64,000 bases of DNA from Deltaproteobacteria bacterium (lineage in GTDB: Bacteria > Desulfobacterota > Desulfuromonadia > Desulfuromonadales > BM103), in NCBI GenBank assembly GCA_024636215.1, contig JAGXHL010000007.1:14140-78139 (forward strand), in the 5' to 3' direction. A program made the position numbers and the translations under genes. The notes beneath the pieces are model-generated. The model saw only the letters and a list, made by a program, of their open reading frames with translations, was not told the DNA's origin and did not search any database. This document shows positions 12,483 to 43,242 of the stretch, one piece after another. How positions within the stretch are numbered: the stretch's first letter is position 1; each line of letters begins with the position of its first letter.

Positions 12483-15975
<3,493 letters not shown>

Positions 15976-39550: not shown

Positions 39551-40330
39551 TCAGCAGCGTTCCATGCTGTCGGATTTGCAGTTTTTCCTCGTCTTTTTCT
39601 GTAAGATCAGCAACTCAAGGGTGCCGAAATAGAACGGCCTGGAATGACTGACGGCAAAACCGCTTTCTGCCAAGAGCATCCTTAGCTGCATACGGTCGGG
39701 AAACGTTTTCAGGCTGGCCGCAATATAGGCGTGGACTTCGGCATTACCGTGCAGCAGAAAACCCCACAGGCCACACCAGTATTTCAGGACCAGGCACTGT
39801 ATTCTCTGAATCCGGGGGTTGGCTGGCTTGGAGAAGTCGAGCAGGGCGACGAAGCCACCCGGCCTGAGAATGCGGTAGATTTCGGCAAACGTCCGTTGCA
39901 GGTCGGCCGCATTGCGCACGGCGTAACCGCAGGTCACAATATCCACTGAGGCGTCCGCAAAACAGGTTGCGCCCATATCCTGGCGGATGAATTCGACCTG
40001 CTCTGAATTATTACGCCGACGAGCTTGTTGCAGCATCGGTTCGGTCAGGTCGACACCGAGGATCGCTCCGGCCGGGTATTTTTCGGCGAGGAGGAAGCTG
40101 ATGTCCCCTGTTCCACAGGCGAGGTCGACGCAGATCGGAGCCGGAAGGTGAGGCAGGGCAGCAACCAACTGCCGTTTCCAGGCGGCATCACGTCCGAGTG
40201 ACATGGCCCGGGTGGCAAAATCGTAGTGCCTGGCAGCTTCGCTGAAATGTTGCTCGTTATACTCCCGCTTGCGCTCCGGGCAATCAATATAATCTTTGAT
40301 TTTCAGGTTGAATTTATGGCTTGGCGACAT
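39551..40330 (-). CDS. UbiE/COQ5-like SAM methyltransferase
   Basis: A 259-residue methyltransferase of the UbiE/MenG type, which C-methylates quinone rings. The SAM site is VDLACGTGDISFLLAEKYP, then VDLTEPMLQQA, CGYAVRNAADLQRTFAE and RILRPGGFVALLDFSKP, all UbiE signatures. The start at 40330 has GGAGAG upstream and lies inside the end of the U32 gene; the open frame upstream is not family-like. It is the last gene of the PKS-U32-methyltransferase cluster, so it may methylate that pathway's aromatic product rather than menaquinone (inference). A menaquinone role is not excluded. Confidence 0.88.
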   Translation of the reverse strand: MSPSHKFNLKIKDYIDCPERKREYNEQHFSEAARHYDFATRAMSLGRDAAWKRQLVAALPHLPAPICVDLACGTGDISFLLAEKYPAGAILGVDLTEPMLQQARRRNNSEQVEFIRQDMGATCFADASVDIVTCGYAVRNAADLQRTFAEIYRILRPGGFVALLDFSKPANPRIQRIQCLVLKYWCGLWGFLLHGNAEVHAYIAASLKTFPDRMQLRMLLAESGFAVSHSRPFYFGTLELLILQKKTRKNCKSDSMERC

Positions 40331-41627
40331 GCTTCTCTCCGGATTCAGGTAGTGAGCTGTGCCGCTTAAGCTGCGCTTGCGCCGGTTTATTGCTGTTATC
40401 CGGTCGATAAGACCACATGTTGCCGCCATGCAGGGAATTGAATAATTCCTCGTAGGCCTCGAGAGCGGCGGCGCGGTTGCTCTCATCGATGCTGATCGCC
40501 CGGTCCGCAAAATCGTGACACCAGCGACATTCTTCGCAATCGAGATCCCTGCAACTGGCCGTACGGAAGCGTTCCATGAAGCCGTCGAGCGCCCGGTTAT
40601 CGATATAGACCGGCGCCCGCCCTTCAAGCGGACGGGTCATGCCACGCAGTTCGGCCAGTCGTTTCAGCGGCAGCATACGCAGCGGGTTGGCCAGTGCCGG
40701 TCTGAGAATAAAACGCAGCAGCCAGCCGAGGCTGTGGTTGTAATAGCGGTGGTTCTCTTTAACGCCCTTGAAGCCATAGGCCTGGATCAAATCGAGCAGG
40801 TTGCCGTCGTAACGGCGGCCGGCATAGGCCTTGACCCGGGTCATCATCATTGCGGTGGGAATGTCGCGTTCGGCGATCTTGAACAGGTCGTAACCGATTT
40901 CTTCATAGAGATGCAGATCCTCGGGGCGGATCCATTCGGAACGAATGTAGTGCACCGGGTTGCGCAGCTTCATCTCGGTGCATTTCAAAAAACACCAGTC
41001 GATGAAGAACCCTTTGTTTTCATGCCAGGATTGGCCGGTGTGGGCCAGGGCGTTCATATGCATGGGCGACATGGCGCAACCGGTCAGACAGTTGTTGTTG
41101 GCCATCAGTTCAAGATCGCATTTGACCGCTTTGCGGATTTCCGCCAGGGTCTCCAGTTCACGATTGACCAGGATGCTATCAAGAACGATGCAATCGGCAC
41201 CGAGTTCCTCCCACATCTGTGCTTTGCGCACCCGGTCAACGCCGCCGAATACCGAGATGCGCACCTTGAGGTGCGGCTGACGGGCCTTGATCAGCTGCAG
41301 CATGAAGGGTGAAGCAACGGTCACCGCCGTGACGCCGATATCGCTAATCCAGTCGAGCAGTGCGTAGATCTCCTTTTGCCCCTTACGGGTGATTTCACGA
41401 TTGCCCATGCAGGATGCGTTCAACAGGTAGTTGAAGGCTATCCCGGAATGACGGGCATGCTTGACGTGCTCGGCCAGCTGGCGTCGCGACACTTTGGCCA
41501 ATTGATAGGGAGCCCGTCCTCCGCCGACCGCATCGGTCTGCAGTTTGCCGAACAACTCGGTGACCGGGTAGTCGCGGCACTGTTCGATCAGCTCATGATC
41601 AAAATTGGTTGCGATGCTTAATCTCAT
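40314..41627 (-). CDS. Peptidase U32-family protein with two cysteine clusters
   Basis: A 437-residue U32-family protein. Several non-protease members of the family (UbiU/UbiV, TrhP, RlhA) are 4Fe-4S proteins or partners in oxygen-independent hydroxylation. Here Cys180 and Cys184 (ANNNCLTGC) and Cys212 and Cys216 (DWCFLKC) form one set of four. Cys359, 364, 367 and 370 (SCRDLDCEECRWC) form a second. AGGAAG precedes the ATG. It lies between a type III PKS and a UbiE-like methyltransferase, overlapping the latter. A role as hydroxylase of the polyketide product is inference. Confidence 0.82.
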   Translation of the reverse strand: MRLSIATNFDHELIEQCRDYPVTELFGKLQTDAVGGGRAPYQLAKVSRRQLAEHVKHARHSGIAFNYLLNASCMGNREITRKGQKEIYALLDWISDIGVTAVTVASPFMLQLIKARQPHLKVRISVFGGVDRVRKAQMWEELGADCIVLDSILVNRELETLAEIRKAVKCDLELMANNNCLTGCAMSPMHMNALAHTGQSWHENKGFFIDWCFLKCTEMKLRNPVHYIRSEWIRPEDLHLYEEIGYDLFKIAERDIPTAMMMTRVKAYAGRRYDGNLLDLIQAYGFKGVKENHRYYNHSLGWLLRFILRPALANPLRMLPLKRLAELRGMTRPLEGRAPVYIDNRALDGFMERFRTASCRDLDCEECRWCHDFADRAISIDESNRAAALEAYEELFNSLHGGNMWSYRPDNSNKPAQAQLKRHSSLPESGEKHVAKP

Positions 41628-41643
41628 TGATTAACTTCCTGGC

Positions 41644-41676
41644 AGCCGGCTCATGAATAGTCCGACAAGCTGCTGG
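41644..41676. repeat. Fragment of the MITE-like element
   Basis: The 33 bases from GCCGGCTCATGAATAGTCCG to GCTGCTGGAC match one terminus of the complete element, with a few changes and a degraded CTAG end. They lie in the spacer between the PKS stop and the U32 start. Confidence 0.75.
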
Positions 41677-41704
41677 ACTTCAACTTCAACGCCCTGCTGC
41701 CGGT

Positions 41705-42862
41705 TCAGGCCTGGGCCAGAAGGGTTTCAGCAGTGGCTTCTGCCTGCTTCGGCTGGTGAGACCGCTGTACCTGCAATAACCCCATCTCGACCGTCAAGCC
41801 GGGGCCGAAAGCCATGGCACAGACATCTTCCTGGAGGGGTCCGTCCTGCTGCATAATGTCCTGCAAGACAAACAGCACAGTTGCGCTGCTCATGTTGCCG
41901 TATTGGCGCAAAATCTTGCGGGAGGCCGCGACCTGGTGCTCTTCAAGGCCGAGGCTTTCCGCAACCTTGTCAACGATCGCCTTGCCGCCCGGATGGACCG
42001 CCCAGCGTGAAATGTCCTGCAGCTCGAGTTGGCCGGAAACCAGGAGCGGTTGCACGGCGTCCCGAATCTTTGCACCGATGATTTTAGGCACGTAGCTTGA
42101 CAGGGCAATATCGAAGCCCAAATCGCCGATCGTCCAAGCCATGGCGTCTTTACCACTCGGAATCAGGCTCGAATGAAATTCACCGAGCTGATAACAGCTC
42201 TGATCTTCTCCCGGTGTGCGGGCGCTGACGATGGCAGCGGCCGCCCCGTCAGCGAAGAGTGAGTTGGCCAGCATTGAATCTTCTCCGCCGTGGATCTGCA
42301 AATGCAGGGTGCAGAGTTCCAGGCAAATGACCAGAACCACGGCTTCAGGGTCTGCTTCGCAGAATTGTTTGGCCATGCGCAAGCCGGGAAAAGCCGCATA
42401 GCAACCCATAAAACCGAGACTGTAGCGCTGGGTGGCATGGGACAGGCCGAGCTCATTAACGATGTGGTAGTCGGGGCCGGGATTGCAGAAGCCGGTGCAG
42501 GAAACGGTGATCACGTGCGTGACCTCGGATGGCTCGAGCCCGGGACAGTTGTTGATGGTCTGCCGGGCCAGCTTGACCGAGAGGTGTTGAGATTCACGGC
42601 TGTAAATCTTGTTGCGTTCGGCCGTGGACAACTCGCGACGTTTACCATCCGAACCGAGGGGGAAAAAGTCACCGGGCAGATTGTTGTCGAAAGAGCTGAT
42701 CACGCTGTGCCGCTTGTCAATCGCCGATTTCCGGTAAAGAGCCCGAACCATACGGCGCTGCCGTTCGTCATCGGTCCATTCCTGCATTTTTTTGCTGGCA
42801 TATTCCTGAGAATAGACCTTCTCGGGTGTCATGGTTTCAAGATGCTGGATCCATATGGACAT
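41705..42862 (-). CDS. Type III polyketide synthase (chalcone/stilbene synthase-like)
   Basis: A 385-residue thiolase-fold enzyme that condenses an acyl-CoA with malonyl-CoA units without an acyl carrier protein. The catalytic triad is readable: Cys154 in GFMGCYAAFPG, His290 in AVHPGGKA, and Asn323 in YGNMSSATV. The FGPGLTVEMGLL loop near the C-terminus is the family GFGPG-type signature. AAGGAGAC precedes the ATG. Bacterial members often make alkylresorcinols, alkylpyrones or phloroglucinol. It heads a minus-strand cluster with a U32 protein and a UbiE-like methyltransferase, pointing to a modified phenolic lipid or quinone; the product is inference. Confidence 0.95.
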   Translation of the reverse strand: MSIWIQHLETMTPEKVYSQEYASKKMQEWTDDERQRRMVRALYRKSAIDKRHSVISSFDNNLPGDFFPLGSDGKRRELSTAERNKIYSRESQHLSVKLARQTINNCPGLEPSEVTHVITVSCTGFCNPGPDYHIVNELGLSHATQRYSLGFMGCYAAFPGLRMAKQFCEADPEAVVLVICLELCTLHLQIHGGEDSMLANSLFADGAAAAIVSARTPGEDQSCYQLGEFHSSLIPSGKDAMAWTIGDLGFDIALSSYVPKIIGAKIRDAVQPLLVSGQLELQDISRWAVHPGGKAIVDKVAESLGLEEHQVAASRKILRQYGNMSSATVLFVLQDIMQQDGPLQEDVCAMAFGPGLTVEMGLLQVQRSHQPKQAEATAETLLAQA

Positions 42863-43242
42863 GGATGTCTCCTTAACTTTTCAGTCGGGCCTAGCGACCG
42901 GACCGTTATTACTGCCGCAAGAGGATCTCAACTTCAACCTGCGCCAAGTCATCAACCTTGATGAAACCCAGCACGCTGGGGGGGCTTCAACTGAAAGCTT
43001 GTCAAGGAAAGAGGACAGTCCCTCACAGTATAAACGGAATCCTGCCAATGTCTTGTGAAACACGGCAACATAATTGCAGCTTGTTGGTTTGCGGCAGGGG
43101 GTTGCTGTGCTTTGAGGGGAGGGGTCGAGCAGCCACGGTTTCGGTTTTTTGCAAGGGTTCAGGCAGCTGTTCAGGCAGGGGTTGTTCGCAACGGTAGAAG
43201 AGCAGACCGCGTTCAAAGTCCTTCTGCAGTAATGGCGGAGTC
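42863..43242. other. 380-base non-coding spacer upstream of the type III PKS
   Basis: Open frames cross this stretch on both strands, but none has a ribosome site, family motif or conserved-looking start. A -35-like TTGACA on the minus strand near 43000-43010 lacks a good -10 partner. Nothing firm is recognised. Confidence 0.4.

Follow-up and report, generated by a model that had tools for sequence, protein, structure and literature searches.

A three-gene set on the minus strand of contig JAGXHL010000007.1 (Desulfuromonadales assembly GCA_024636215.1) probably forms an operon that directs the synthesis of a modified phenolic lipid, in which a type III polyketide synthase (PKS) would build an alkylresorcinol-type ring, a U32-family protein would hydroxylate it without oxygen and a UbiE-like methyltransferase would methylate it. 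From family assignments and gene neighbourhoods we put the probability of this reading at roughly 0.7. Within the window, by which we mean the whole stretch of 64,000 nucleotides analysed (positions 14,140 to 78,139 of the contig), the PKS gene (41705..42862, 385 amino acids (aa)) is followed by the U32 gene (40314..41627, 437 aa), encoding the putative oxygen-independent ring hydroxylase, and then by the gene for a UbiE/COQ5-like S-adenosylmethionine (SAM) methyltransferase (39551..40330, 259 aa). The PKS and U32 genes are separated by 77 bp; the likely methyltransferase start is the ATG at 40330 and not that of a longer, mechanically called open reading frame (ORF) from 40627, so that its gene and the U32 gene share 17 bp. 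These genes were first proposed at these coordinates in a sequence-only reading of the window, and ORFs together with Pfam and TIGR matches bear this out; their association is not due to chance, since a PKS and a methyltransferase both lie near the U32 gene in 26 of 75 U32 loci. The named close relatives of the proteins come from Desulfuromonadales, Desulfuromonadaceae, Desulfuromonas and Desulfuromusa.

Each of the three proteins is readily placed in its family. The PKS matches PF00195 (87 bits), PF02797 (94 bits) and PF08392, and the intact Cys-His-Asn triad previously attributed to it could be located by motif positions at C154 (codon 42403-42401), H290 (41995-41993) and N323 (41896-41894), aligning with the active-site blocks of PKS18. 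Five pattern matches to viral copies of the PKS were seen, none of which was confirmed. The U32 protein exceeds the PF01136 cut-off (41.7 bits against 22.4) and its AlphaFold2 (AF2) model, with a predicted local distance difference test score (pLDDT) of 91.5, has 5d88 as its nearest fold, so that it combines a Peptidase_U32 domain with a TIM-barrel fold. The methyltransferase (METHYLTRANSFERASE), assigned from its translation, scores 166.1 bits against TIGR01934 (cut-off 158.35) and 125.6 bits against PF01209.

The combination of these genes is conserved beyond the window. The 75 U32 loci come from a single search of genome contigs, its query being a U32 alignment in which row P0120 occurs twice, and among their neighbours, taken from a greedy choice of ORFs, a type III PKS lies within 5 kb of the U32 gene in 27; some reference proteins used for this count come from counted loci themselves (L035, L037, L004), and the PKS identity of L035 and L038 was confirmed by Pfam. 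When loci are graded by U32 identity, the PKS is nearby in 11 of 13 at 60% or more, 3 of 18 at 45-60%, 13 of 29 at 38-45% and none of 15 below 38%. A methyltransferase accompanies the pair in all PKS-linked loci except L034, being UbiE-like in the two closer identity bins and of another SAM methyltransferase family in the 38-45% bin. The association extends to gene fusion, three U32-UbiE fusion proteins occurring among the best 120 U32 matches listed. In a tree built from 53 U32 proteins, linkage to a PKS appears in three distinct clades, and well-supported branches force five changes; this rests on 11 labelled rows, with 12 rows without known neighbours left uncounted. As a separate observation, U32 genes from Omnitrophota (L044, L046, L049, L051-L056) have neighbours from a single gene family, and the one member scanned, from L049, is a B12-binding radical SAM protein resembling HpnJ/BchE; no PKS was found near these loci.

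We propose ring hydroxylation without oxygen because the U32 gene holds the place of an oxygen-using hydroxylase in sister clusters. A survey of one order (136 genomes, centred on G001) found U32 in 13 genomes; 44 genomes gave a PKS match at E 1e-10, and these include all 13 with U32 (P 1e-7, kinship ignored), although the PKS is distant (113-156 bits) in G033, G102 and G104. Twenty-four genomes carry a PKS of at least 400 bits; ten of these have U32 (eight inside the cluster, two on another contig), ten have a flavin adenine dinucleotide (FAD) monooxygenase directly beside the PKS, four have neither and none has both (P 5e-4, kinship again ignored). Searching the 136 genomes for the monooxygenase at E 1e-60 gave 11 carriers, comprising nine from PKS surroundings, G029, where it lies directly beside the PKS, and G111, whose copy is 2.7 kb away from a PKS that is itself more distant. 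Scans of three of the ten members against Pfam and NCBIfam place the monooxygenase in PF01494 (FAD_binding_3), whose relatives include UbiH/UbiF/COQ6 and the 4-hydroxybenzoate and polyketide hydroxylases. The YceI-like protein, MMPL transporter, 212-aa protein and methyltransferase are mostly common to U32 and monooxygenase clusters, with gaps in single clusters, and no FAD monooxygenase was found near U32 in any of the 75 loci. On the best PKS tree two exchanges between U32 and monooxygenase are needed, and the U32-bearing pair G008/G101 groups with the monooxygenase-bearing G099 (95/92); several deep forks of this tree are open and its outgroup branches are long. At two loci (L153 and L154, from G021 and G025) the monooxygenase reading frame beside the PKS is interrupted.

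A similar arrangement appears in Planctomycetota, for which 294 genomes were sampled and 12 of 17 PKS loci were read. The same kind of FAD monooxygenase adjoins the PKS at two of the twelve (L216, L217), and U32-bearing relatives have the order U32-methyltransferase-PKS. Three of the twelve have neither the monooxygenase nor a gene of the B12-radical SAM family, and at the other seven (L218, L220-L225) one conserved gene family adjoins the PKS, the scanned member of which (L222) is a B12-radical SAM protein.

Gene neighbourhood also connects the U32 clade with prephenate. A fused chorismate mutase-DAHP (3-deoxy-D-arabino-heptulosonate 7-phosphate) synthase, identified by Pfam and NCBIfam scans of one of seven examples (L027), adjoins the U32 gene in 7 of the 75 loci (L010, L026-L030, L075), at gaps of -9 to 55 bp; no PKS was found near these seven. 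On the U32 tree L010 is sister to the window clade, while the other six constitute another clade. Chorismate mutase-DAHP synthase takes chorismate to prephenate. Prephenate is described as the hydroxyl source in anaerobic ubiquinone synthesis and perhaps a common source for U32 oxidases (PMC11574389), and hydroxylation by TrhP is reported to require it (PMC6599085). The neighbouring synthase could also reflect the synthesis of aromatic building blocks at those loci.

The cysteines of the U32 protein are likewise suggestive. C180, C184, C212 and C216 (within 40980..41090, minus strand), together with C73 (41411-41409), make a candidate first iron-sulphur (Fe-S) site, and the C-terminal quartet C359-X4-C364-X2-C367-X2-C370 (40518..40553, minus strand) a candidate second. 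Across 53 diverse aligned members C73, C180, C184, C216, C364, C367 and C370 are invariant, C359 is conserved in at least 90% and C212 is absent from several; this invariance suggests two metal sites in one chain. In alignment no counterpart of the C-terminal quartet was seen in Escherichia coli UbiU, UbiV, TrhP or RlhA. The spacing in this clade also differs from CX6CX15CX3/4C, given in PMC6747719 as a recurrent pattern of U32 families, where UbiU and UbiV are each described as binding [4Fe-4S].

In the mechanism we propose, the PKS would condense an acyl-CoA starter with malonyl-CoA to give an alkylresorcinol-type ring, as its family membership implies. The U32 enzyme would then serve as an oxygen-independent stand-in for the FAD monooxygenase of sister clusters, hydroxylating the ring as UbiU-UbiV do ubiquinone precursors; judging by its family, gene neighbours and conserved cysteines, it probably takes the hydroxyl from prephenate and uses Fe-S clusters. 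Methylation of the hydroxylated ring by the UbiE-like enzyme would yield a non-isoprenoid redox lipid of the alkyl hydroxy-(hydro)quinone type, which in fuller clusters the MMPL transporter, YceI-like and 212-aa proteins probably carry to the envelope. The order of condensation, hydroxylation and methylation had been put forward by the sequence-only reading, and it gains partial support from the conservation of the gene set, the U32-UbiE fusions, the monooxygenase in place of U32 and the prephenate-enzyme link. The gene order, its conservation, the fusions, the exchange with the monooxygenase and the neighbouring genes are direct observations, whereas the substrate, each of the reactions, a resorcinol or quinone product in preference to a pyrone, the Fe-S sites and export to the envelope are inferred.

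Several observations weigh against the proposed pathway. Four genomes with a PKS of at least 400 bits (G016, G055, G064, G097) have neither hydroxylase, and two genomes, that of Geothermobacter (G008) and G101, carry U32 on a contig other than the one with the PKS-methyltransferase cluster. The mutual exclusivity of U32 and monooxygenase is partly a matter of kinship, and across all 136 genomes the lack of overlap between 13 U32 and 11 monooxygenase carriers is unremarkable (P 0.32). In the Planctomycetota sample the 17 carriers of an L037-type PKS and the 13 carriers of U32 do not overlap at all. A division in which U32 belongs to anaerobes and the monooxygenase to aerobes was not found, because every one of the 25 genomes tested, drawn from all kinds, has COX1-type heme-copper oxidases; since related genomes of the order carry such oxidases, the organism, earlier described as an anaerobe, may not be one in the strict sense. 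No PKS was found within 5 kb in 48 of the 75 U32 loci, some of them on short contigs; the U32 clade therefore does not serve PKS products alone. Finally, hhalign comparison of the clade profile with three E. coli proteins gave no match to UbiV, a probability of 65 for UbiU and, as the best result, 96 for TrhP.

Among alternative explanations, one concerns the product of the PKS, which might be an ordinary alkylpyrone that the U32 protein and methyltransferase modify in some other way, such as on the side chain or by O-methylation of the pyrone, without any quinone being formed. A pyrone is possible because the best PDB sequence matches of the PKS, 7cb3 and PKS18 (1ted), include in PKS18 an alkylpyrone synthase, and this counts against the proposed pathway as well. 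We nevertheless think the pyrone route unlikely, given that the sister clusters use a FAD_binding_3 monooxygenase akin to UbiH/COQ6 and 4-hydroxybenzoate hydroxylase, which are enzymes of phenolic rings, and that the methyltransferase is UbiE-like. It is less probable still that the U32 protein shares the operon but not the pathway, acting instead on RNA like TrhP and RlhA, or as a peptidase. The profile match to TrhP, the many loci lacking a nearby PKS and the two genomes in which U32 lies apart from the cluster all favour such a role, but it is hard to reconcile with the U32-UbiE fusions, with PKS linkage in three U32 clades and with the replacement of U32 by a monooxygenase in sister clusters. 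Service in ordinary menaquinone or ubiquinone synthesis, with the methyltransferase as MenG/UbiE, is very improbable: the methyltransferase does exceed the TIGR01934 cut-off, and one of ten U32-bearing genomes tested, G009, has no protein above that cut-off other than its cluster copy (192 bits), but the other nine encode a separate UbiE of 236-259 bits against 145-177 bits for the cluster copy, and the established routes to menaquinone and ubiquinone do not involve a type III PKS. Because a better-scoring UbiE exists separately in those nine genomes, the cluster methyltransferase is probably not the menaquinone enzyme, and identification as MenG was judged unlikely, G009 excepted.

The proposed pathway has analogues in two kinds of characterised system. 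With UbiU-UbiV(-UbiT) it shares a U32 family with conserved cysteines, a UbiE-type methyltransferase partner and the replacement of FAD monooxygenases of the UbiH/COQ6 kind; UbiU and UbiV together are reported to stand in for UbiI, UbiH and UbiF without the use of oxygen (PMC10470549). UbiU-UbiV is, however, a heterodimer acting on a polyprenylated 4-hydroxybenzoate, whereas the window cluster has one U32 gene and not an adjacent pair, its product belongs to a separate clade, at 14-18% identity to UbiU, UbiV, TrhP and RlhA, with two cysteine quartets in a single chain, and its substrate would be expected from the PKS. No SCP2/UbiT-type gene was present among the eight window neighbours scanned. 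The prephenate-dependent RNA hydroxylases TrhP and RlhA are similar in belonging to the U32 superfamily, as the hhalign result with TrhP indicates, and in their link with prephenate, which here is one of gene neighbourhood only; the window protein differs in its cysteine layout, its additional C-terminal quartet and its lipid-type gene neighbourhood.

The second analogy is with operons for modified alkylresorcinols. The srsABC operon comprises three genes, for a type III PKS, a ring-oxidising enzyme and a methyltransferase. The same composition is seen in hidABC and in planctomycetal methyltransferase-oxidoreductase-type III PKS operons (PMC10896814), and the window cluster may work like these, except that it has a U32 protein where they have a flavoprotein. 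No flavoprotein was found among the window neighbours scanned, the FAD enzyme occurring in sister clusters. Counterparts with an oxidoreductase in the place of U32, FAD-dependent where named, are described from Planctomycetota and Cyanobacteria in PMC10896814, and the words 'U32' and 'peptidase' do not appear in its main text. A search of titles and abstract openings recovered, among the papers listed, no report of a pathway uniting U32 with a type III PKS; bioRxiv and most subscription papers fall outside its coverage, and it is therefore no proof of novelty.

Comparison with close relatives shows the window set to be a shortened version of a more extensive cluster. Loci L001, L002, L012 and L023 have the order YceI-like gene, PKS, MMPL transporter, 212-aa protein, U32 and methyltransferase, the families being assigned on L001, while in G011 and G003 the order is YceI-PKS-U32-methyltransferase with no MMPL gene within the cluster. 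Of the three additional genes the window keeps only a stretch from the tail of the YceI-like gene, approximately its last 36 codons (42918..43019, minus strand), which tblastn matches to residues 155-190 of the L001 protein at 58% identity (E 3e-6); no tblastn match to the MMPL or 212-aa proteins was found in the window at E 0.01. The YceI assignment is itself weak, falling under the Pfam cut-off in L001 and over it in L021. The 212-aa protein, aligned from 10 of 13 listed sequences, has a start resembling a signal peptide and an AF2 model (pLDDT 82) without a PDB match at E 0.001. In L001 the YceI-like gene has immediately upstream of it (L001:1078-3260) genes for a sigma-54 response regulator and a receiver-domain protein, and the same regulator families were found upstream in L150 and L152. 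In a Bdellovibrionales locus (L021:4094-7989) a molybdenum xanthine-dehydrogenase-type gene and an amidohydrolase gene lie directly upstream of a U32-PKS-UbiE cluster.

The genes flanking the set in the window belong to families unrelated to it, judging from the eight neighbours scanned. Beyond one end are tatC, tatA and nadA, and beyond the other a DsbA/thioredoxin-like gene and an ATP-binding cassette (ABC) transporter. The 380 bp that separate tatC from the PKS gene (42863..43242, minus strand) presumably hold the operon promoter, and AAGGAG precedes the PKS start. A sigma-54 promoter was considered and rejected, the window containing 75 matches to the pattern where shuffled sequences predict 75.7, which is the level of chance.

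A broader interpretation, to which we give even odds, is that the window protein belongs to an additional, widely distributed group of U32 hydroxylases, whose single-chain members contain two Fe-S sites, draw on prephenate and have changed places more than once with flavin monooxygenases in clusters for polyketide lipids; bacteria would thereby make non-isoprenoid alkylquinones without oxygen as membrane redox lipids. The U32 hydroxylases characterised so far are described as acting on ubiquinone precursors and RNA (PMC11574389). If the proposed pathway is correct, oxygen-independent aromatic hydroxylation would reach polyketide lipids through a U32 clade tied to PKS, repeating the exchange of oxygen-dependent for oxygen-independent hydroxylases known from ubiquinone synthesis. 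It would also provide a single-chain enzyme in which the U32 mechanism, and the roles of prephenate and the Fe-S clusters within it, might be tested, and it could add a redox lipid to the repertoire of Desulfuromonas-type and other sediment bacteria.

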